A DNA stretch of 64,000 nucleotides from Eubacterium sulci ATCC 35585 (GTDB lineage: Bacteria; Bacillota; Clostridia; Peptostreptococcales; Anaerovoracaceae): assembly GCA_001189495.1 (NCBI GenBank), contig CP012068.1, positions 1,364,001-1,428,000 of the forward strand, in the 5' to 3' direction. The notes beneath the pieces are model-generated. The model was given only the letters and a program-made list of their open reading frames with translations. It did no database searches and was not told where the DNA came from. The translations under genes were made by a program, and so were the position numbers. This document shows, one piece after another, positions 2,428 to 36,293 of this stretch (positions are counted from its first letter, which is position 1; every line of letters starts with the position of its first letter).

Positions 2428-3468
2428 TTAAATTAGTTCTTCGATAATACTACAAAATTGTTCTTTAGTATCTACTGAGTTGATTTTTGCCCTTACCGCA
2501 GAGCTACCCTTAATCCCCTTTAGATACTTTGCTGTGAATTTGCGCATCTCTCTGACTGCAACATATTCACCCTTGTACTCACAAAGCTCAAGCATATGGC
2601 GAACTATCATGGATTTTATATCCTCTACGCTCACCTCTTCCTGAAGCCTTGCATAGCTTGCATCTATATAATCCGAGCTTTCAGCGTCGGTATTTGTCAA
2701 ATTAATTCCTTCTTGCTCCTTCATATAAGCCTGCCTTAGTTCCCTGAAAATCCATGGATTTCCTAGCGATGCTCTTCCGACCATTATGAAATCACATCCG
2801 GTCTTATCAAACATATTCTTGGCATCTTTATACGAGCAAACGTCCCCGTTTCCGATTACAGGAATTGATACTGCCTTCTTGACCTTTGCAATCTGCTCAA
2901 GGTCAGCTTCTCCGCTGTAGTACTGCTCACGTGTTCTTCCGTGTACAGCCACCACGCTGCCACCTCCAGCCTCTATGGCCTGAGCAGCTTCTACTGCAGC
3001 ATTCTCAGAGCAGCCTTGTATGCCTATCCTTATTTTAGCAGAAACTGGTTTATTTGTCTCTGCTGTCATCGCCTTTATTATTCGATAAATTAGCTCAGGA
3101 TCTCTAAGAAGTGCAGACCCTTCACCGTTCTTTACGATTTTTGGCACTGGACAGCCCATATTTACATCAAGGATTACATTTGGAAGCTCGTTCAGCATGG
3201 ATGTTGCTCTTGCCATGATATCTGGTTCTGAGCCAAATATCTGCACTGCAACAGGAACCGTCTCTCCCTCCATATCGAGAAGCTTTGGCGTTTTTCTATC
3301 GCCATAGCACAGTCCCTTAGCGCTCACCATCTCTGTATAGACCATGGAAGCACCCATCTCTGCACAAAGCATTCTGTATACCTTATCAGTAAAACCCGCC
3401 ATAGGCGCAAGAAAAAATGGTGTTTCAAACTCTAAACCTTGAATTTGAAGCATTCTCCCATTACTCAT
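2428..3468 (-). CDS. dusB: tRNA-dihydrouridine synthase
   Basis: A 346-residue FMN-dependent TIM-barrel enzyme that reduces uridine to dihydrouridine in tRNA D-loops. The N-terminal APMAGFTD (21-28), the catalytic cysteine C106 in VNMGCPVPK, and VVAVHGRTREQYY and PVIGNGDV are all typical of the DusB group. An insertion of about 25 residues around residue 255 (NLTNTDAESSDYIDAS) precedes the C-terminal helical domain. The start overlaps the end of coaX by eight bases, so the two are probably translated from one message. Confidence 0.9.
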   Translation of the reverse strand: MSNGRMLQIQGLEFETPFFLAPMAGFTDKVYRMLCAEMGASMVYTEMVSAKGLCYGDRKTPKLLDMEGETVPVAVQIFGSEPDIMARATSMLNELPNVILDVNMGCPVPKIVKNGEGSALLRDPELIYRIIKAMTAETNKPVSAKIRIGIQGCSENAAVEAAQAIEAGGGSVVAVHGRTREQYYSGEADLEQIAKVKKAVSIPVIGNGDVCSYKDAKNMFDKTGCDFIMVGRASLGNPWIFRELRQAYMKEQEGINLTNTDAESSDYIDASYARLQEEVSVEDIKSMIVRHMLELCEYKGEYVAVREMRKFTAKYLKGIKGSSAVRAKINSVDTKEQFCSIIEELI

Positions 3469-4341: not shown

Positions 4342-5922
4342 CTAGTTAATTACTTTTTCTAATCTCTTTAGTGCAAGTGCAATTGTAAGCCCTGGAATCA
4401 CGCGGTTTCCCGTTATATCGGCTCCAAGCACCTCATTTATCTTCTTGAGTCTATATTGCACAGTGTTTGTATGTATGCCCATGAACTGCGATGTCTTACC
4501 GCTATTCATCCCCGCATCTATAACAAAGGTTTCTAGCGTCTCTAGGAGCTGCTTAGCTTTGTTTTCGCCCATTTCCTTGTTAAATGCATCGAGCAAATCT
4601 AGATAGTTCTTTTTGATATATCCACCCTGCACCTGAATATTGATACAGTTTGAAACAAGCACCATCTCATACTTGGAGAAAACTCTTTTGAACGGGAACA
4701 CACTCTCAACTAGAGTCCATGTCTCGCTGATGAGTCTAAATCCGTCTCCAGCTCCCTCAAGTCCATCAAGTCCTGTTGTGTGGAAGATTCTAACTCCCTT
4801 TCCTAATTCCTTTAGACTATCGTAAAGCTCTATGCAGCTGAACTTAGTGCCAGAATGCTCATCCTTAGGCTTACCGAGAAGAACTAGTCCGTAAGTCTCA
4901 GCTCCATCCTGTATGCTTAAAACCTCGTTCCCACTGCGTTCCTCATATCCAGCCATCTTCTTACGAGCATCTGATGTATTAACACCCTTAGCATAAAATA
5001 CGCTCAAAATGTTATCTGCTTTGATACCCATAGTGTCCTTTAGCGAATATGCAAGGCTCTTATTTCCTCTTATCAAGGCTTTGATAAACTCAGCCTTCAC
5101 ATCACGCTCAGGCGTGTACTTCCACATTCCTATCGCAAGTTCAATAATTTCAGCTAGCTTAGTTATCTCGACACTAGAATATCTATCATCGTTATCTACT
5201 ATTAGGAGGAAGTATTTCTCGTCTCCGATGTTAACAGCTCCCCAATATGTTATAACGCCATCTAGATTTGTCATTGAGTACATAGCTCCAGCTTCACTGC
5301 TAGATTTCTTTTGGAGTATTCTAACAGCATCCGCGACGGTAACATTGTTTCTTGTCTCAACGACTAAAATCGGATTGAAGTCCTTAGATATAAGGGCCAT
5401 CTGAAAATCATTACTTACTGCCGCTTCCTTGACAGCTGCCTGAAAGGTCTTATGCTTCTCAAAGTCCAAAAGATGATATATCGTGTTGTTTATCAAATTG
5501 TTATTAAATGTTGCTCCGAGAAGAAGTTTATCCATAATCTGCTCTATGGCATCAGCATATCCGTAATCGCTTCCTTCTGGAATGAATATCAAAGGCATTC
5601 CCATAGCCTCTGCTATTTCAATCATCTGCACATAATCTTCCCTATCTGCGTCGCTTACATGAAACACGATAAGTGCCGCTATTCCGCAAGCAGCAAGCTC
5701 CTTAACAGCCTGCGCCTGCTTTAGCGTATCGTTTTTCATTGCATAAAAAGACGTCAGAACAACTTGCTCCCTAACACCGTTATTTGCAACTGCAGTCTCC
5801 ACGTCTGCAGCATCCATAACAGAAACTGTGCGTACGCTGTTTTCTAAATTTCGCTTTCCCGCGACGATTTTACAGTTTTTAAATATATCTAGTTCTAGAC
5901 AATCTTTGACAGTAATCTTCAT
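4342..5922 (-). CDS. PucR family transcriptional regulator
   Basis: A 526-residue protein with an N-terminal PucR/purine-catabolism-type sensor domain (about 1-125), a middle GGDEF-like CdaR region (about 280-400), and a C-terminal HTH_30 DNA-binding domain (about 455-520, with HTNTVQYRLKKINEVLG). Such proteins usually activate local catabolic or stress genes in response to a small ligand. The ligand is unknown. It sits between coaX and ftsH in the same direction, so it is not next to an obvious purine operon. An AGGGGA ribosome site precedes the ATG. Confidence 0.85.
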   Translation of the reverse strand: MKITVKDCLELDIFKNCKIVAGKRNLENSVRTVSVMDAADVETAVANNGVREQVVLTSFYAMKNDTLKQAQAVKELAACGIAALIVFHVSDADREDYVQMIEIAEAMGMPLIFIPEGSDYGYADAIEQIMDKLLLGATFNNNLINNTIYHLLDFEKHKTFQAAVKEAAVSNDFQMALISKDFNPILVVETRNNVTVADAVRILQKKSSSEAGAMYSMTNLDGVITYWGAVNIGDEKYFLLIVDNDDRYSSVEITKLAEIIELAIGMWKYTPERDVKAEFIKALIRGNKSLAYSLKDTMGIKADNILSVFYAKGVNTSDARKKMAGYEERSGNEVLSIQDGAETYGLVLLGKPKDEHSGTKFSCIELYDSLKELGKGVRIFHTTGLDGLEGAGDGFRLISETWTLVESVFPFKRVFSKYEMVLVSNCINIQVQGGYIKKNYLDLLDAFNKEMGENKAKQLLETLETFVIDAGMNSGKTSQFMGIHTNTVQYRLKKINEVLGADITGNRVIPGLTIALALKRLEKVIN

Positions 5923-12425: not shown

Positions 12426-12641
12426 TTACGAGTCTAGCTCTTCCTCAGCCCAGTCGTCATTTGACCACTCTTCTGCCGGCCAGTCCTCATTTACGAAGAT
12501 TTTCTTCATGACTCTATCAAGTCCTACAACGATAGTAGCACCTGCTGCTGCACCAAAGCCCAAAACAACTAGGCTTGTCTTAAGCGCCTTCTTAGCCTTA
12601 CAGCTCTTATTAGCTTTTTCTGCCCTCTTACTCTTCTTCAT
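12426..12641 (-). CDS. Small single-pass membrane protein, unknown
   Basis: A 71-residue protein, not recognised. It has a very basic N-terminus (residues 1-20, Lys-rich), one hydrophobic segment rich in small residues (about 22-40, TSLVVLGFGAAAGATIVVGL), and an acidic, Trp-rich tail (NEDWPAEEWSNDDWAEEELD). This charge pattern suggests a single-pass membrane protein with the acidic tail outside, but topology is inference. An AGGAGG ribosome site and the 12-base gap to the kinase gene support a real gene, cotranscribed with it and ended by the terminator at 12372. Confidence 0.7.
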   Translation of the reverse strand: MKKSKRAEKANKSCKAKKALKTSLVVLGFGAAAGATIVVGLDRVMKKIFVNEDWPAEEWSNDDWAEEELDS

Positions 12642-12653
12642 TTCAAATCCTCC

Positions 12654-13268
12654 TTATTTGTACAATCGTCTCTTTACATATTCGACAATAAGGTTTGCTG
12701 CTTCCTCATCGCTGATGTAGCTAGTATTTATAGCTAGATTATAGTTCTCGTAGCTACCCCACTTCTTTCCGGTATGGAAGCTGTAGTAGTTAACCCTTGC
12801 CTTTCCATAGTCAGTGATGAGCTTCTTTACCTTGGATGGATCTTCGCCGTACATCTCTACACAGCGCTTAATCTTATCATCCATCTCAGCATATATAAAT
12901 ACGTTGGTTACACCGCTGACATCCTCGAGAATATAATCTGCACACCTGCCAACTATTACTCCCTCTCCAGTATCAGCAATCTGTCTTATTACCTCAGATT
13001 GCGCTACAAATAACTTCTCATCTACTGAAACAGGGTCTGCAGTAAAGGCTTCTCCAAAGGTCATCGCTGATGCAAATGTGTAGGACAAGCTGCTCTTTGC
13101 TCTAAGCTCTGCTGACTCTATTATCTCAGGAGATAGACCGCTCTTTTTGGATGCTAATTCAATGATTTCCTTGTCGTAAAGAGGAATATTTAGCTTCTCA
13201 GCGACGAGACGACCTATCATTCTTCCGCCACTGCCATATTCTCTACTTATGGTAATTATATTTCCCAT
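12654..13268 (-). CDS. Cytidylate kinase-like protein
   Basis: A 204-residue P-loop protein of the cytidylate-kinase-2 family (PF13189). ITISREYGSGGRMIGRLVAEKL at the N-terminus holds the nucleotide-binding loop (SGGR in place of a classic Walker A). VIVGRCADYIL, the lid-like region RCVEMYGEDPSKVKKLI and YYSFHTGKKWG follow. Members are common in Clostridia but their true substrate is mostly untested, so CMP kinase activity is only suggested. AGAGGTG precedes the ATG. Confidence 0.8.
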   Translation of the reverse strand: MGNIITISREYGSGGRMIGRLVAEKLNIPLYDKEIIELASKKSGLSPEIIESAELRAKSSLSYTFASAMTFGEAFTADPVSVDEKLFVAQSEVIRQIADTGEGVIVGRCADYILEDVSGVTNVFIYAEMDDKIKRCVEMYGEDPSKVKKLITDYGKARVNYYSFHTGKKWGSYENYNLAINTSYISDEEAANLIVEYVKRRLYK

Positions 13269-25086: not shown

Positions 25087-25194
25087 TCCTCATCTTTCAG
25101 ACTGTTATCTGTAGGATGTAGCACCTTTCCGTGCCTATCAGCACATAGGTTGCCGGGCATCGCAGGGCCTATTCCCTCCGCCGCTCTTGATAAG
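25087..25194 (-). ncRNA. SAM-I (S-box) riboswitch controlling metK
   Basis: The minus strand shows the conserved S-box core: CTTATCAAGAG at the 5' end (P1), GGAGGGA, GGCCC, GATGCCCGGCAACC, then the 3' P1 strand GATGAG, which pairs with CTTATC. SAM binding stabilises P1 and lets the terminator at 25041-25071 form, which stops transcription before metK. Confidence 0.96.
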
Positions 25195-25206
25195 GATTAT
25201 ACCCAA

Positions 25207-25391: not shown

Positions 25392-28300
25392 CTATTTCTT
25401 AAGTAATTTGTTAGCAGCTTCGCTCGAAATCAAATCATCTCCGCCCAATACAAAGCACTTTTGAACCTTTGCCTTAGATATATACGCAGCTGCTTCAGAT
25501 AAATTGCTATTACTTACTAAAAGTAGAGGGCTATTATCAATAGCACATAATACACCTGCACAAAGGCCATCTGGAAAGTTAAGACCATATGTTAAGTATA
25601 CCTTTTTGTGTTCTCCTGCAAAGAATTTTTCAGCCACTACTCTTGATGTAGCAAACCTATCTGAACCTTCTAGACGTTCAACATTGCCAAGCTTTGATAC
25701 TGCATTTTCAACATTTTTGCTAACAACATCACTTCCACCTATCAAATAGAACTTCTTGCCGTTATGAGTTTTTAAGTATGCTATCTGATCATCACTTAGC
25801 TTGCTTCCTACTAGCATTATTGGCTTACCTGCTGCTGATGCCGAAAGTGCATCAGCAAAATTGTATGCGTTACAAAGCGCGATATCCTCACCATGAGCAC
25901 CAGATGCCTTAAGAACCTCTAGATTTGTTTCAAATCTTGTGCCACCCTCAAGTCTATGTTTTTTTCCTGGCATCATATCAGCAATTTGCTTTGATACGAC
26001 ATCTTCTCCTCCTATGATATAGATATTTGCATTTTCCGATGCATTCTTTTTTACATAAGCACTTATGTCATTTGCACTTGACTTATTTACTATCAAAACA
26101 GGAGCATTCTTTACCTTTGCAAGATATGTAGCCGAAAGTGCATCCGCAAAGTTATCACCGTTTGCAATTACAATATTATCGAACTTCTCCACACCAAGTT
26201 TTTCTTTTAGCTTATCCGCTATTGCCATTGAAGTTTCAAAACGAGTTTCTCCTGCAATTCTCTCTGTGCCCTTATCTTTATCGTTCTTTAATCTTTCAAC
26301 CTCTTCTGCAAGCTCTTTAACCTTTGCTTCAGCAGCTCTTTTATCGGCCTCTGCTTTCTCTGCCTTTGCAATAGCATTATTAAGTTCAGCTTCAGCTTTT
26401 TCTGCTCTTGCTTCTGCTGCCTTCTTAGCAGTTTCTGCCTTTTCAGCCCTTGCCTCTGCTACCTTCTTATCGGCCTCTGCCTTTTCAGCCTTTGCTTCAG
26501 CTAATTTCTTTTCTGCTTCTGCTTTTTCTGCCTTAGTTACAGCCTTATCCTTTTCTGCCTCTGCAGATGCAAGCTTATCTTGAGCCTTTTTCTTTTCACT
26601 TTCAGCCTGAACAAGTTTTTCTTCTGCCTGCTTCTTATCCTCTTCAGCTTTTGCTAACTTTTCTTCAGCTGCATTCTTTGCTTTTTCGGCATCCGCTGCC
26701 TTTGCCTCTGCTGCTTTTTGAGCCTTCTCTGCCTCTGCTGCTTTTAGCTCTGCATCCGCCTTACCTTTTTCTATGTCGGCAATCTTCTTATTCAGAGCAT
26801 CCTCGTCGATTGTCTTTTCTATCGATACTGTTAGTTCCTCTTCGGTTGTAAGCTTAGCTGTAATCTCATAAACACCTTGATCATTTGGTATAATCTCTGT
26901 GCCATCAACACTTACTGTGTACTTATATAGCTCTTTCTTATTGATCTTAAAGCTTAATTCACTTCCCTGTGAGCAATATCTTGGGTTTTCGCCCTCGACA
27001 TCCTTTATTCCGCTTCCGACAAAATCCACCTTGCACTTCTTTGCCAGCTTAATTTTAATATTTGGCAAGCTGCTAAGGTTTCCTGATACAGTATCTGCGT
27101 TCAAATTAGGGTTCAATCCCTGTGAATATGTTAGGTTTCTATGTGATCCTGGATTACTTCCAAATCCATTGCTCTCTAGGCAACCGTTAACTAGCTCAAG
27201 TTCATCTCCTTCGATGTTATCTGGAATAGTCAATGAAACTAGCTGTTGCTTTGGATTTCCACTAAAGTCGTAAACACCGAAAGGACTTCCAGGAACGGAT
27301 TTGTATGATTTCCCATTCTTATCCTTATATGAAATTGTTGTATTTCTGTTATATACACCTGCTAGCTTTTCCACTGGATTTAAAAGACCATTGAACTGGA
27401 TATTTATCTTATCTCCAGCCTTCAGTTTTGTTGTATCCGTTATCTTGTTTCCATTTGTGTCAAGGATTTCATAGTTCATCTCTCTTGCATTTATTACTTG
27501 ATATGTTGTCTTACCATCCTTTTCTACTTTAATGATATGTCTTCCCGTTGTTAACTTTGATACTGTAACTTCACCACTTGCATTTGTATTAACACCATCA
27601 TTAGTGAATCCTTTATACTTAAGGCTTTCTTCCACTACGCTTCTGTTGACAGTCACTGTGCTACCAGCTTCTGGCTTAAACGAATAGCTTGCACCATTTT
27701 CACCTTTTAGATAGTAAATTGTGTCATGTTCTGCATCGATTGGCATCATCTTGACCCCACGATTGATATTCATATTTGTCTGTATTGATGAATCGTTATT
27801 GCCAACTTTAACCATAAACACACCAGTTAGTTCTGGCCAGATTGCTGAGAAGTCAGTTCCTCCTTGAGCTTCTGAGTGTATTACTGCATCGTATTTTACG
27901 AGTACAATTGCTGTTCCGCTATGATTTGCTTTGATCTTTGCTACAGCCGAATTATTCTTATTTGCTGTTACTGATACTACATCTGAAGCATTTCCGTTCT
28001 CGTCTATTACCTCGTAGTGGAAGTCTGGAATTGCAATTTTGCTGTTCATGAAGTTTTCTATAGGCTGCCAGTTTCTAACACAGTTTAGTTCATAGCTTCC
28101 GCCCTCTGCCATCTCAAGGAAACCCTTTTGATTTATGTTGATATAGACATTTGCCATGTCGTGAACATTCTTATTGAATCTGTAAACAGTATCCTTCTGA
28201 TAGCTGCTATCTCCGATATGCAAATCCTTTTCTGTAACTTCGATTGGTTCTGTAACATTAAAGTTCTTTGGAAATGCCCAGTATGTAACACCCTTAGGAT

Positions 28301-30029
28301 TCTGTACACGATAGAAATACTTGCTCTGGCCTTTAGCCATCTTGAATCTTGCTACAACTCCATTTGATGTTTCTGTAACTTCAGGCTCTACGAAGTTATA
28401 CTTATAGTAATTTCTACCATCACCATAACCTGCTGACACCTTTGAACCCTTTGGTGCAATTATCGTTAGATCTGTGATTTCAGGCATGGTAGCACTTATA
28501 TCGGTGTTGCTGTTTGTCTCGTTTGCGGTCTTTACGACCTTAGTACTAGTATGAGTTTTCGCCTTATCTCCTATAGGTGTCAGACTTGCCTCTACTGTAT
28601 CCCTATCCATATATAGGAATGAAAGCTTATTATTCTCATTTTTACCAAAGCTTATAGTTCTGAGAGTTCCATCATTTCCGCTCACCTTGACATCGAGCTT
28701 ATAGTCTTTGTCCTGCACCCATCCTGAGTTTCCTATATTGAAGTCCCATATTCTATGCAGAGTTACGCTGTTATTTTCTTTTGTGAAACTCAGCTTTATG
28801 CCACCGTTCAGCTCATCGTTAGGACCATAGCCTTCGAACCAGTAGTCTCCTGCCGGAAGCTCCGTCTTATACTGCAATGCCCAGTTATCCGGCGATGTAC
28901 CGATGCCTTCCAGAAGGTTTTTGTCTCCCTTAACACCATTTTTGAAAGTGTAGAGTTTTCCGCTCTTAATCTGCCTTGAATGCAAGCCTTTTATTGTAAT
29001 CGGGAATTTTTCCTCAGGCTGTTCTTCCTCAGCTCCGGTTACATCTAAAATAGCTACCGCCGGTGTTGATACAACCTTATCCTGCTCTGGATCTATTTGA
29101 CCTTCCATAGCGATATAGTATCTGCCAGTAGCCATACCAGCCGTATCTAGATCAAAGCTACCATCTTCATTCTTATCTAATGTCTTTAGTGCATTGCATT
29201 CGCTAAGCTTCTCGTGAGTAAAGTCAGATGCTTTTATTACCTTTAGCTGTTTGACATTTGATTGGAAAATTCCTGTTCCGGAGCTTTCTGAAGACATTAT
29301 GTCCTGCCAATGACGCTCTGCAGTTATGTTTAGTAGTTCACCTGCATTAACCTCTGACTTACAATTAAGTGCATTAAATCCGGCTAGCTTGCTACCATAG
29401 AAGTTAGTGTTTGAAAAATGTCCTATCTGAACGTCATCGCCATCATTTAACTCAATTTGATCTGCCGTTGCTCCCCAACCTTCTGAAGCTTGCGGAAACT
29501 TGCCATTTACATAGTAGTTGAGATTGCTATCAAAGTTTAGAAACCCTGTAAAATACATGCTTCCTGCTTTTCCACTCATAGAAAAGAGTTCTGTTCCTAT
29601 ATGATCCCTAAGGGCACCTTCTCCTACATTATCAGGATCAATGCCTAGGTAGTAAACCTCTGCCATATATATGTAGAGGTGAAGCAAGGTAATGTGACCC
29701 TTTGCAGTTTCTGCTGTACCCTTTACCTCATCATCTTTACCGTATGAGCCATTATGGAAATAGAAATTTTCTAATCCATAGTTTGCTAAATCAAAGTATT
29801 TTAGTTTTACTCTTTCCTTTGCCATGGGCTTACTCGATAAGCCACCATGATTCTTTGCTACGACAAAGTTTTCATCATGTGAAAATGAAAACTGTACATC
29901 GATACCATCAGTTTCTTTATTTGCATCACGTACTTGAGCAAAAGCTGATGTTGGAATCAACGATAGGATCATGAAAACGCTCAGCAATAAGGCGAGCAAT
30001 TTCTTGTATCCATGTTTTCTGTATGCCAT
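25392..30029 (-). CDS. Giant cell-wall-bound surface protein with a transcobalamin-like (DUF4430-like) N-terminal region
   Basis: A 1545-residue secreted protein. Residues 1-31 are a signal peptide (basic start, LLALLLSVFMIL, TSAFA). Residues about 75-215 resemble DUF4430/transcobalamin-like domains: GHITLLHLYIYM helix, YYVNGKFP (172-179), LNDGDDVQIG (194-203). The long middle (about 360-1060) looks like beta-rich Ig-type modules without families I recognise. Residues about 1066-1250 are a charged coiled coil with five 14-residue repeats at 1167-1236. Residues about 1252-1545 hold three cell-wall-binding type 2 repeats (RIAGETRFETS, RLEGGTRFETN, RLEGSDRFATS), which bind wall polymers non-covalently. 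The start at 30029 follows AGGA; the longer open frame runs into the riboswitch terminator. It is monocistronic under a cobalamin riboswitch, which fits a role in capturing B12 or another corrinoid; this is inference. Confidence 0.85.
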   Translation of the reverse strand: MAYRKHGYKKLLALLLSVFMILSLIPTSAFAQVRDANKETDGIDVQFSFSHDENFVVAKNHGGLSSKPMAKERVKLKYFDLANYGLENFYFHNGSYGKDDEVKGTAETAKGHITLLHLYIYMAEVYYLGIDPDNVGEGALRDHIGTELFSMSGKAGSMYFTGFLNFDSNLNYYVNGKFPQASEGWGATADQIELNDGDDVQIGHFSNTNFYGSKLAGFNALNCKSEVNAGELLNITAERHWQDIMSSESSGTGIFQSNVKQLKVIKASDFTHEKLSECNALKTLDKNEDGSFDLDTAGMATGRYYIAMEGQIDPEQDKVVSTPAVAILDVTGAEEEQPEEKFPITIKGLHSRQIKSGKLYTFKNGVKGDKNLLEGIGTSPDNWALQYKTELPAGDYWFEGYGPNDELNGGIKLSFTKENNSVTLHRIWDFNIGNSGWVQDKDYKLDVKVSGNDGTLRTISFGKNENNKLSFLYMDRDTVEASLTPIGDKAKTHTSTKVVKTANETNSNTDISATMPEITDLTIIAPKGSKVSAGYGDGRNYYKYNFVEPEVTETSNGVVARFKMAKGQSKYFYRVQNPKGVTYWAFPKNFNVTEPIEVTEKDLHIGDSSYQKDTVYRFNKNVHDMANVYININQKGFLEMAEGGSYELNCVRNWQPIENFMNSKIAIPDFHYEVIDENGNASDVVSVTANKNNSAVAKIKANHSGTAIVLVKYDAVIHSEAQGGTDFSAIWPELTGVFMVKVGNNDSSIQTNMNINRGVKMMPIDAEHDTIYYLKGENGASYSFKPEAGSTVTVNRSVVEESLKYKGFTNDGVNTNASGEVTVSKLTTGRHIIKVEKDGKTTYQVINAREMNYEILDTNGNKITDTTKLKAGDKINIQFNGLLNPVEKLAGVYNRNTTISYKDKNGKSYKSVPGSPFGVYDFSGNPKQQLVSLTIPDNIEGDELELVNGCLESNGFGSNPGSHRNLTYSQGLNPNLNADTVSGNLSSLPNIKIKLAKKCKVDFVGSGIKDVEGENPRYCSQGSELSFKINKKELYKYTVSVDGTEIIPNDQGVYEITAKLTTEEELTVSIEKTIDEDALNKKIADIEKGKADAELKAAEAEKAQKAAEAKAADAEKAKNAAEEKLAKAEEDKKQAEEKLVQAESEKKKAQDKLASAEAEKDKAVTKAEKAEAEKKLAEAKAEKAEADKKVAEARAEKAETAKKAAEARAEKAEAELNNAIAKAEKAEADKRAAEAKVKELAEEVERLKNDKDKGTERIAGETRFETSMAIADKLKEKLGVEKFDNIVIANGDNFADALSATYLAKVKNAPVLIVNKSSANDISAYVKKNASENANIYIIGGEDVVSKQIADMMPGKKHRLEGGTRFETNLEVLKASGAHGEDIALCNAYNFADALSASAAGKPIMLVGSKLSDDQIAYLKTHNGKKFYLIGGSDVVSKNVENAVSKLGNVERLEGSDRFATSRVVAEKFFAGEHKKVYLTYGLNFPDGLCAGVLCAIDNSPLLLVSNSNLSEAAAYISKAKVQKCFVLGGDDLISSEAANKLLKK
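26322..26531 (-). repeat. Five tandem 42-bp units encoding a 14-residue coiled-coil repeat
   Basis: Residues 1167-1236 of the surface protein consist of five units of the form AEKAEAEKKLAEAK, with variants at a few positions. Exactly 210 bases are covered. The DNA units have diverged at silent positions, so this is an old array; the 14-residue unit equals two heptads of an alpha-helical rod. Confidence 0.85.
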
Positions 30030-30052
30030 TTGTTCTTCCTTTCTGCTGCAAT

Positions 30053-30088
30053 AAAAAAGACCGCAGCACATAAATAAAAGCTGCAGTC
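30053..30088 (-). terminator. Cobalamin riboswitch terminator (expression platform)
   Basis: On the minus strand GACTGCAGC (30080-30088) pairs with GCTGCGGTC (30059-30067) through a 12-base loop, followed by TTTTTT (30053-30058). It lies between the aptamer and the surface-protein start, so B12 binding should end transcription here. Confidence 0.9.
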
Positions 30089-30136
30089 CGTTTTCCCGCA
30101 ATAAAATAAACTAAGTGCCTTCCTGCACTTAAATCT

Positions 30137-30308
30137 CGATTACGAGCAGGTCTCCTGACTTATGTCTCAATACAGCATTAACCTTCTCGGATAAAATCCA
30201 ATGGTTGCGCTTGCCCTAATGCTGCTCTTCATTTACAGTGGCGGAATCCGTCTCGGATTTACACCGAGTTCCCTCTTAGCTATCTCCTAAGGTGCAATCT
30301 CAAACCTT
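30137..30308 (-). ncRNA. Cobalamin (B12) riboswitch
   Basis: The minus strand carries the cobalamin-aptamer landmarks in order: GGTTTGAGATTGCACC near the 5' end, GAGGGAACTCGGTG, AATCCGAGACGGATTCCGCCACTGT-type core (GCCACTG at about 30237-30243), AGGGCAAGCGC, and the B12 box AGTCAGGAGACCTGC near the 3' end (30147-30161). Downstream is a strong terminator, so this is an off-switch controlling only the surface protein. Confidence 0.96.
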
Positions 30309-30339
30309 TCTGATAGAACTCATAATGTACAACAGATAA

Positions 30340-30368
30340 ATTTTAGCACATTCACCATAATCAGTCAA
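30340..30368 (-). promoter_or_regulatory. Promoter of the cobalamin-riboswitch transcript
   Basis: On the minus strand TTGACT (30363-30368), a 17-base spacer and TAAAAT (30340-30345), about 25 bases before the aptamer. Confidence 0.75.
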
Positions 30369-36055: not shown

Positions 36056-36082
36056 CAAAAATAGCCTATATCTATCCATTCC

Positions 36083-36240
36083 ATCTTTTCCCATCCGGAC
36101 TAACCAACTAGCTGTATTAACTCGCAGAACCAAGCCAATATCAAATGTTGGAATACCGTCGGTTTCGGAATTTCACCGAATCAGCCTAAAAAGGTTTGTG
36201 GACTATACCACCGGTCAGGACTCTCACCTGCCTCAAAGAT
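36083..36240 (-). ncRNA. FMN riboswitch (RFN element) controlling ribU
   Basis: The minus strand contains the RFN hallmarks: ATCTTTGAGGCAGGTGAGAG, CCTGACCGGTGGTATAGTCC, GATTCGGTGAAATTCCGA, AACCGACGGTATTCC, and AGTCCGGATGGGAAAAGAT, with ATCTTT/AAAGAT closing P1. FMN binding should favour the terminator at 36009-36055 and shut off riboflavin import. Confidence 0.97.
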
Positions 36241-36293
36241 AGTTGCATTCAATTATCTACTCGCTGCACATCTATTGCCTGTGCAACACTATC

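Follow-up and report, generated by a model that had tools for sequence, protein, structure and literature searches.

A gene for a large wall-bound surface protein in Eubacterium sulci ATCC 35585 stands behind a cobalamin riboswitch, and the same pairing of riboswitch and N-terminal head recurs in other Clostridia. We give a probability of roughly 0.62 to the reading that the gene and its leader form one unit of a regulon in which cobalamin riboswitches control corrinoid catchers displayed on the wall; the ligand, its affinity, the partner and the hand-over are what we infer. For Bacteroides, BtuG has shown how corrinoids in short supply are caught outside the cell membrane, but for Gram-positive anaerobes little is known of this, to our knowledge. 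The analysis suggests that members of the Clostridia respond to low B12 by displaying proteins that catch it at their surface.

A riboswitch-led wall protein

The window, that is, the whole stretch of 64,000 nucleotides that was analyzed, contains the following features, listed in the order of transcription.

30340–30368, minus strand: promoter-like TTGACT-17-TAAAAT (consensus scan, 10 of 12 letters; weak by itself)
30139–30325, minus strand: cobalamin riboswitch aptamer (RF00174, 88.1 bits, E 2.1e-20)
30053–30089, minus strand: intrinsic terminator, the predicted expression platform (10-pair hairpin at 30058–30089, U run to about 30053)
25392–30029, minus strand: surface-protein gene, 1545 amino acids from ATG (open frame and translation)
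29937–30029, minus strand: signal peptide, residues 1–31 (by eye: basic start, hydrophobic run, AFA-Q)
29367–29924, minus strand: predicted transcobalamin-like beta-grasp head, residues 36–221 (predicted fold and hhalign)
28995–29366, minus strand: Ig-like domain, residues 222–345 (model of residues 36–345, pLDDT 87)
27015–28490, minus strand: middle beta-rich module, residues 514–1005 (alignment of 7 proteins; blastp)
26274–26834, minus strand: Ala/Lys/Glu-rich, Gly/Pro-poor rod, residues about 1066–1252 (composition)
25395–26261, minus strand: three CWB2 repeats in tandem, residues 1257–1545 (PF04122, 163.3 bits, 3 stretches)

An earlier note, made from the letters of this DNA, had described a promoter, a B12 aptamer and a terminator ahead of a secreted protein of 1545 residues with wall-binding repeats, and each of these parts was recovered. 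In the covariance-model search the aptamer covers positions 14–178 of the 189 in the RF00174 model and lies above the gathering score of 31.5 bits, and in a whole-genome search the same element scores 89.3 bits. The terminator region folds at −23.6 kcal/mol over 71 nt (z −4.3), the matching leader stretch of a relative (L033) has a similar fold (z −3.4), and another genome, G005, which encodes an orthologue of the protein with about 80% identity, carries both aptamer and hairpin. A simple terminator scanner, which allows loops of at most 8, listed another hairpin, at 30111–30132, and passed over the one at 30058–30089, whose loop is 12. The scanned stretch holds four promoter-like sites, where shuffled sequences hold 2.0 on average. 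Since the action of cobalamin riboswitches is known to be OFF for the RNA class and a terminator is present, expression of the surface protein is predicted to be repressed by B12.

Searches of the whole protein against Pfam, NCBIfam and PDB sequences returned CWB2 and otherwise only weak or below-cut-off matches, largely to coiled coils. Residues 222–345 have Ig-like and macroglobulin-like matches in the structure search. The rod of about 185 residues foreseen in the earlier note is visible in the composition and is probably a coiled coil, judging from the sequence, with matches to coiled-coil families below cut-off. For the middle of the protein, which had been called of unknown family, no Pfam family scores above cut-off; blastp and the seven-protein alignment place this module in other large surface proteins as well, several of them riboswitch-led. 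Its presence in several riboswitch-led proteins made it a candidate for the functional part, but it belongs to no named family. As had been remarked, no transport or cobalamin gene adjoins the 1545-residue gene among neighbours named by eye.

The pairing recurs in other Clostridia

An independent set of loci was assembled by protein pattern alone, yielding 42 loci, 15 of which were dropped because their contigs had the same length as one studied before. In 20 of the 27 retained, the head gene has an RF00174 match no more than 2 kb upstream on its own strand, at a median riboswitch–gene distance of 562 bases; about 0.1 such loci would be expected, and chance pairing is rejected on this count. 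Other placements occur once each, at 5.7 kb, on the opposite strand, and also downstream, and the seven loci with no confident riboswitch within 2 kb include one (L200) that is cut by the contig start. When heads are clustered at 70% identity, which takes care of near-identical sequences, 12 of 18 clusters have a riboswitch. The link of the head to B12 is thus far stronger than a single locus could show.

A first set, with 28 matches to the N-terminal module (alignment A1, comprising head and Ig-like part, some rows weak or partial) in 25 genomes, had 14 modules with no confident riboswitch within 10 kb. That set covers only genomes searched for riboswitches, omits two weak rows (G362:C50:20034 and G156:C1:2201184), and its count is not independent, as G000, G005, G006 and G030 were already known to have riboswitches; in many of its genomes only 68 first-look candidates were scored, and riboswitches may have been missed. 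Among 20 loci taken with 1.5 kb flanks, the window included, a riboswitch was found in five.

A divergent head with a predicted transcobalamin-like fold

The N-terminal region had been assigned to a transcobalamin-like DUF4430 domain, with an HMM search and structure prediction proposed as checks. The transcobalamin-like fold stood in the predicted structure and in profile–profile comparison, and the assignment to the Pfam family fell: PF14478 (cut-off 23.8 bits) has no match in the protein at E ≤ 10 and matches none of 16 head-family members at E ≤ 1, so that membership is rejected.

Models were built of residues 36–345 and of the head alone (36–221; pLDDT 82, pTM 0.83), and the two overlapping stretches gave the same elements. 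The head model contains, in order, E8-16, E37-41, H80-92, E114-117, E124-128, E137-139, E145-147 and E163-167, a predicted beta-grasp core that carries a beta-hairpin insert behind the helix, as in the transcobalamin-like SLBB group. Since the Ig part filled the list obtained with residues 36–345, which holds mostly Ig-like domains, matches to cobalamin carriers appeared only with the head modelled alone. Among 152 chains compared by VIA-align, the top 14 entries are all haptocorrin, transcobalamin or intrinsic factor, at Z 8.1–9.3, values barely above the level that can reflect a common arrangement, with rmsd 2.3–2.9 over 95–99 residues and 7–14% identity over the aligned residues; a Ruminococcus gnavus protein (3u7z, Z 7.9) and Urm1 (7.5) come next, and MoaD-like and SAMP chains score lower. 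Haptocorrin also ranks first in Foldseek, with a weak E-value of 0.27. Both lists contain 5np4, which according to its title is the isolated beta domain from human transcobalamin in complex with cyanocobalamin, and hence a beta domain by itself can bind the ligand. In animal carriers much of the grip on B12 is supplied by an alpha/alpha toroid, which is common, though not universal, in the same chain within the transcobalamin-like SLBB clade; Pfam and further family searches recognized none in the window protein.

By hhalign the head aligns to a profile of 24 DUF4430 sequences with E 4.3e-5 and a probability of 69%, the correct columns being paired; this is of moderate strength, against 8.3e-3 for the best of 30 column shuffles, 0.11 for the reversed profile and 0.076 for the Ig part. 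A plain HMM of the same 24 sequences misses the head (window protein E 8.7), and a profile of the 16 family members found nothing convincing among PDB sequences. Together, model and profile comparison support the head as a divergent transcobalamin-like family outside the reach of Pfam. The failure of PF14478 and the weak Foldseek E-values are what one would expect if the pairing at the window locus were accidental or decayed and the fold prediction misleading; with aptamer and hairpin present in G005 too, shared elements in the two models, and the recurrence in the independent loci, such a coincidence is scarcely credible.

Operons with transporter genes

In at least one case the operon continues directly past the head gene: in L197 a riboswitch is tightly followed by genes for the head protein, a cohesin-domain protein, DUF4430, a CbiQ-like protein and an ECF ATPase. 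In L155 a riboswitch comes ahead of a gene whose protein matches the head weakly (17.7 bits, E 1.5e-6), and genes for a toroid-like lipoprotein, DUF4430, CbiQ and an ECF ATPase follow. The head gene follows cobT/U/S on the same strand in L174 and btuR/cobO in L182. A separate toroid-like lipoprotein (L031, 714–1805) is indicated by weak, below-cut-off matches. That relatives have such genes in one operon with those of ECF transporters supports the inference that corrinoids would be captured and handed to an importer.

Genes of the CbiQ/CbiO type are named for cobalt, and the regulon in E. sulci includes a NEAT-like small protein (L026, 8130–8771; PF05031, 22.4 bits, below the cut-off of 32.8), NEAT domains being binders of haem. 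The protein might accordingly capture a different tetrapyrrole or metal species (for example haem, cobalt or products of corrinoid breakdown), and B12 would serve only as the regulatory readout. We regard this as improbable, given that cobalamin carriers rank first among the 152 chains of the structural comparison and that the ECF gene sets carry DUF4430 and toroid-like parts.

Proposed mechanism and relation to known systems

The system is best read as B12-repressed, wall-displayed corrinoid capture, which would make it a functional Gram-positive counterpart of Bacteroides BtuG. At high levels of cobalamin in the cell the aptamer would bind it and the leader would terminate; as the level falls, the surface-protein gene would be transcribed. 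The product would be exported, held to the wall by its CWB2 repeats and extended on the rod, and the divergent SLBB beta-grasp head at its tip would bind corrinoids alone or against a partner, possibly the toroid-like lipoprotein that another locus of this genome encodes, before they pass to DUF4430/ECF or BtuFCD-type importers. More tentatively, many large surface proteins whose divergent heads resemble haptocorrin may form, together with DUF4430 proteins, lipoproteins of toroid-like type and perhaps beta-propellers, a clostridial wall relay with the logic of Isd, the haem relay of Gram-positives, in which cobalamin riboswitches would release all parts together when B12 falls and corrinoids would end at ECF/BtuFCD importers. 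If so, heads in animal-associated species could conceivably compete with host haptocorrin or intrinsic factor, since they resemble the beta domain of these carriers.

Burroughs and colleagues (2007; PMC1796856) predicted that low-GC Gram-positives scavenge B12 by means of transcobalamin-like SLBB proteins at their surface. These proteins share with ours secretion or wall anchoring, a beta-grasp whose helix is followed by a hairpin, and, for the family, genes near CbiO/CbiQ-like transporters, whereas the window head is missed by PF14478, has a longer helix–hairpin stretch and no fused toroid. The head family goes with cobalamin riboswitches, and the word riboswitch occurs nowhere in the available text of PMC1796856; what is added to the known prediction is this tie and the divergent family, which also bears on the proposal, made there, that animal B12 carriers derive from low-GC Gram-positives. 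The vertebrate carriers themselves have a beta domain resembling the predicted head at the low identity given above, and differ from the window protein in their toroid.

BtuG, as described in the accessible part of PMC6143338, is likewise a surface protein of a B12-riboswitch-regulated system, and capture for an importer, proposed here, is proven there. It is, however, a seven-bladed beta-propeller lipoprotein of Gram-negatives, whereas our protein is wall-bound, Pfam finds no propeller family in it, and the models, which span residues 36–345, give the head as a beta-grasp. For C. difficile the review PMC11477304 lists three riboswitches of the same RNA class, which lead cbiMNQO, a BtuCDF-like operon and genes of cobalamin synthesis, and no surface protein is among their targets; those in the available part of PMC5644110 precede cbiL, cbiB and mutA. 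A partial literature search found no account of Gram-positive surface proteins that cobalamin riboswitches control. Large surface proteins would join transport and synthesis as a gene class under these riboswitches, and the riboswitch-tagged heads offer candidates for testing across many Clostridia.

Other riboswitches of the same genome

The E. sulci genome has ten confident RF00174 matches, that of the window included, and two weak ones. Five of the ten precede large surface proteins, and the others a CbiK gene, a BtuF-like/FecCD operon, an AP_endonuc_2 gene and two opp-type ABC operons. The CbiK gene, identified by search, leads a cbi operon whose other genes were named by eye, and the organism may therefore not depend on scavenging.

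Riboswitch-led proteins of this genome carry LRR_5, GLUG, SHIRT and Big modules, which, with the adhesin-like CWB2 anchor, rod, Ig-like and beta-rich modules of the window protein and the varied ligands of the SLBB superfamily (PMC1796856, in its available part), would fit a B12-responsive adhesin. Low B12 would then be only a signal, for example for settling by corrinoid producers or host tissue, and the head would bind protein or glycan. This is unlikely in view of the recurrence of the head with cobalamin riboswitches, the L197 operon, and the cobalamin carriers that are its closest listed folds. The interpretation in the earlier note is partly supported overall. Beyond what a single locus offered to that note are the nine further confident and two weak riboswitches and the sharing of the middle module by other large proteins. 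Two of the riboswitch-led proteins, an LRR_5 protein of 886 residues and a propeller protein of 1794 residues, have no such head; the latter was considered as a candidate Gram-positive BtuG.

A riboswitch-led gene for a wall-bound protein

Positions 25392-30368 of the minus strand hold, in order, a promoter-like site, a cobalamin aptamer, a terminator hairpin and a gene of 1545 codons, and the earlier note had described leader and product correctly.

Elements of the leader and of the 1545-residue protein
30139-30325, minus strand: cobalamin aptamer (RF00174, 88.1 bits)
leader, minus strand: terminator hairpin, then U (71-nt stretch, -23.6 kcal/mol, z -4.3)
N-terminus: signal peptide (by eye)
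residues 36-221: head (AlphaFold2 model)
residues 222-345: Ig-like domain (model of residues 36-345)
residues 346 to about 513: intervening stretch
residues 514-1005: beta-rich module
residues about 1066-1252: Ala/Lys/Glu-rich rod (composition)
residues 1257-1545: three CWB2 repeats (Pfam)

Pfam recognized nothing above its cut-offs in the whole protein apart from the CWB2 part, which bears out the proposed cell-wall-binding repeats. The rod, also proposed in that note, stands as a matter of composition, and the beta-rich middle, then assigned to no family, is a module common to other large proteins. The gene is alone, as had been noted, with no transporter or cobalamin genes alongside: one flank is a SAM riboswitch (25087-25196) preceding metK (by eye), the other a divergent gene of a kind not recognized. 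The SAM riboswitch is ordinary-looking, as is an FMN riboswitch at 36079-36244. In G005, which the genome taxonomy search places in the same genus, the order of elements is identical (aptamer 87.5 bits, comparable hairpin z -3.4), and the encoded counterpart shows 80% identity across residues 1-1155, with 87% in the CWB2 part.

Family and fold of the head

The N-terminus had been read as DUF4430-like and transcobalamin-like. By the curated test the head is not a DUF4430 domain: at E<=1, PF14478 hits none of the 16 sequences that make up its family, taken over head and Ig-like part; a plain HMM built from 24 DUF4430s likewise misses the window protein (E 8.7). The transcobalamin-like part of the claim, however, is supported by profile comparison and predicted fold. 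The pattern NLxYYVNGxYP...GWGATAD...L.DGD is conserved in the 16-sequence family, with its motifs in the same order as in DUF4430s from the same genomes, and profile-profile alignment with the 24 DUF4430s gave E 4.3e-5 (probability 69%, head columns 75-162), compared with 8.3e-3 for the best of 30 column shuffles, 0.11 for the reversed profile and 0.076 when the Ig part of these proteins took the place of the head.

AlphaFold2 produced good models both of residues 36-345 (pLDDT 87, pTM 0.86) and of the head alone (pLDDT 82, pTM 0.83). Foldseek returned no match to the head alone at E<=0.001; its first-ranked entry was haptocorrin (E 0.27), with transcobalamin at ranks 5, 6, 7, 11 and 13 and MoaD/Urm1-like proteins between. 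In a VIA-align 2 comparison with 152 chains, haptocorrin, transcobalamin and intrinsic factor accounted for every one of the first 14 entries (Z 8.1-9.3, with rmsd 2.3-2.9 across 95-99 residues), followed by the Ruminococcus gnavus protein 3u7z (7.9), Urm1 (7.5) and others lower, where a Z below 8 can reflect a common arrangement and a shared fold shows no function. This specific ranking of cobalamin carriers is an argument, at the level of models, for a transcobalamin-like head. The predicted order of strands and helix includes a hairpin after the helix, the feature that, according to Burroughs and colleagues (PMC1796856), marks out the transcobalamin-like clade of the SLBB superfamily.

Recurrence with cobalamin riboswitches

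Head and Ig-like part together form the N-module (alignment A1). At E<=0.001, with partial matches counted, it was found in 37 of the family's 349 genomes and in 19 of 291 genomes sampled across the class, three genomes being shared. Twenty loci were inspected first, with flanks of 1.5 kb, and five of them, the window's included, had RF00174. Riboswitch positions were then compared for 28 N-module matches in 25 genomes, a set partly seen before and so not independent, and for DUF4430 matches in the same genomes.

Matches with a confident same-strand RF00174 upstream (expected number in brackets, for N-modules by density), and other placements
within 2 kb: N-module 8/28 (0.08); DUF4430 9/77 (0.20)
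within 5 kb: N-module 13/28 (0.21); DUF4430 15/77 (0.49)
within 10 kb: N-module 14/28 (0.41); DUF4430 19/77 (0.99)
opposite strand: N-module 0/28; DUF4430 2/77
downstream: N-module 1/28; DUF4430 7/77 (within 5 kb)

No confident RF00174 lay within 10 kb upstream of the single N-modules of G016, G151, G158, G301, G308, G659 and G367 (the last with a 22-bit candidate), of both in G153 and in G159, of one of two in G675, or of the second matches in the window's genome and G005 (26.5- and 28-bit candidates). In G376 (C18 37032-38972), three strong cobalamin riboswitches stand in series within 2 kb, about 3 kb before an N-module match.

To obtain an independent set, GTDB species genomes were scanned with a protein pattern for the head by itself, which yielded 42 loci, 27 of them on contigs new to the study. 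A same-strand cobalamin aptamer lies within 2 kb upstream in 20 of these 27, at a median of 562 bases from the match; one locus has it at 5.7 kb, one on the opposite strand, and one has an extra aptamer downstream. Assuming even placement and independent loci, the chance of at least 20 is about 1e-40 at a generous ten riboswitches per 2 Mb, and about 4e-24 for heads clustered at 70% identity (12 of 18 with aptamer). The seven loci without an aptamer within 2 kb upstream are L172, L175, L179, L186, L195, L200 and L210; L200 is truncated where its contig begins, and an aptamer is present in both of its near-copies, L197 and L202. By label, the head loci come from Lachnospiraceae, Oscillospiraceae, Ruminococcus, Tyzzerella, Eubacterium minutum, Hornefia and others. 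At L189 a TwoAYGGAY RNA (5245-5757, 86.8 bits) immediately precedes the cobalamin riboswitch of the head-protein gene.

Operons in relatives

At L197, in a Ruminococcus MAG, the aptamer leads a series of genes that overlap or lie about 20 bases apart; they encode a head protein (112.6 bits), a cohesin-domain protein, a DUF4430 protein (61 bits), a CbiQ-like protein and an ECF ATPase. L155, in G156, begins with an aptamer (12553-12805) and a gene whose product matches the head weakly (17.7 bits, E 1.5e-6). After a gap of about 490 bases come genes for a lipoprotein that weakly resembles squalene cyclases (E 1.9e-4, far under the cut-off), a DUF4430 protein (70.8 bits), CbiQ (29.7 bits) and a double ECF ATPase. 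The L197 CbiQ-like protein, without a Pfam match at 1e-4, is 36% identical to its L155 counterpart, and the ATPases are 47% identical. At L154, also in G156, an aptamer (3268-3461) precedes a 1261-aa protein and a head protein (255 bits). The head gene follows cobT, cobU and cobS on the same strand at L174, with an aptamer and two short frames between, and btuR/cobO at L182.

The cobalamin regulon of the window's genome

The whole-genome search gave ten RF00174 matches above cut-off and two weak ones; five of the ten lead large surface proteins.

Large surface proteins and their riboswitches (profile E-values against a 28-protein set)
1545 aa: window protein, CWB2 and head; confident RF00174
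1147 aa: GLUG and DUF4430; confident RF00174
847 aa: SHIRT and Big_2, DUF4430 profile E 1.5e-8; confident RF00174
1794 aa: CWB2 and PQQ-type propeller match, L029 7834-13218 (G000:C1 about 255.8-261.2 kb); confident RF00174, 44.7 bits
886 aa: LRR_5 surface protein, L030 7367-10515; confident RF00174, also matched as an AdoCbl-type riboswitch (RF01482)
1529 aa: CWB2, head profile E 1.8e-8; weak RF00174
646 aa: weak RF00174

The same profiles detect head- or DUF4430-like domains in the 1545-, 1147-, 847- and 1529-aa proteins and none in those of 1794, 886 and 646 aa. Among the genome's five CWB2 frames, those of 1545 and 1794 aa have confident riboswitches and that of 1529 aa a weak one; the frames of 1179 and 704 aa have none among the RF00174 matches. 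The 1794-aa protein has a relative near the N-module gene in G016 (29.6% identity over 490 residues), and G156 encodes another propeller-like protein. A raiA RNA lies just after the 886-aa gene.

Candidate importer genes, which the earlier note had suggested seeking elsewhere in the genome, are present. One RF00174 precedes the gene of a small secreted protein, accompanied by BtuF-like, FecCD and ATPase (by eye) genes. At about 334.8-341.8 kb (L151, L031), behind none of the RF00174 matches of the whole-genome search, lie a CbiQ-like protein (21 bits, below cut-off), an ECF ATPase, an ECF S component, a DUF4430 protein and a toroid-like lipoprotein. Another confident RF00174 leads CbiK and a cbi operon (by eye), and five B12-binding-domain matches suggest a demand for the cofactor.

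Proposed function and known systems

Cobalamin riboswitches are described as OFF switches of transport and synthesis genes (PMC11477304). The leader here contains a terminator; read most simply, plentiful cobalamin would terminate transcription there and scarcity would lead to display of the protein. Wall anchor, rod and terminal head would suit capture outside the membrane. The head might bind corrinoids without a toroid, because 5np4, matched by both Foldseek and VIA-align, is, by its title, human transcobalamin's beta domain with cyanocobalamin bound; the genome may also encode a toroid-like partner. Given the operons shared in relatives and the regulon shared here, captured corrinoids would then pass to ECF or BtuFCD importers.

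Transcobalamin-like SLBB surface proteins of low-GC Gram-positives were predicted to be B12 scavengers by Burroughs and colleagues in 2007, with CbiO/CbiQ neighbours noted; the word 'riboswitch' has 0 occurrences in the text of that article as available (PMC1796856). The owners of those proteins are described there as usually without key B12 synthesis enzymes; the window's genome encodes CbiK at least, within a cbi-like operon. BtuG of Bacteroides is proven to catch B12 at the surface, comes from loci under B12 riboswitches (PMC6143338) and differs in fold from the head; as BtuG is a propeller too, the 1794-aa protein is a candidate second B12 catcher. Within the reach of our searches, the following is new: the head belongs to a family that Pfam fails to recognize, this family is strongly tied to cobalamin riboswitches in Clostridia, and in one genome half of the confident riboswitches of this class stand before large surface proteins.

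Other members of the regulon and a recurrent neighbour

Two oligopeptide/nickel-type (opp-type) ABC operons, one with a methyltransferase, each follow their own RF00174 (L023 4079-9969 and L025 4382-9374; 110.5 and 98.8 bits), to our knowledge an unusual transporter type for a cobalamin regulon. An AP_endonuc_2 TIM-barrel protein behind a 106-bit riboswitch (L024 8082-8885) is 31% identical to the protein heading the cobTUS operon of L174 and is a candidate CbiR, the cobamide-remodelling enzyme of the AP_endonuc_2 superfamily (PMC7733943). Three secreted proteins of the regulon may handle corrinoids or haem: one with a below-cut-off NEAT match directly after CbiK (L026 8130-8771), one that matches FMN_bind and follows a weak riboswitch (L032 6663-8603), and the 252-aa protein preceding the BtuF-like gene (L027 7661-8419). 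A trio of MoxR ATPase, DUF58-like and transglutaminase-like genes (named by eye) repeatedly adjoins these surface-protein genes, at L031 1818-6275, L154 9250-13404 and L156 9984-14177, and divergently at L180 2-5352 and L189 3-5174.
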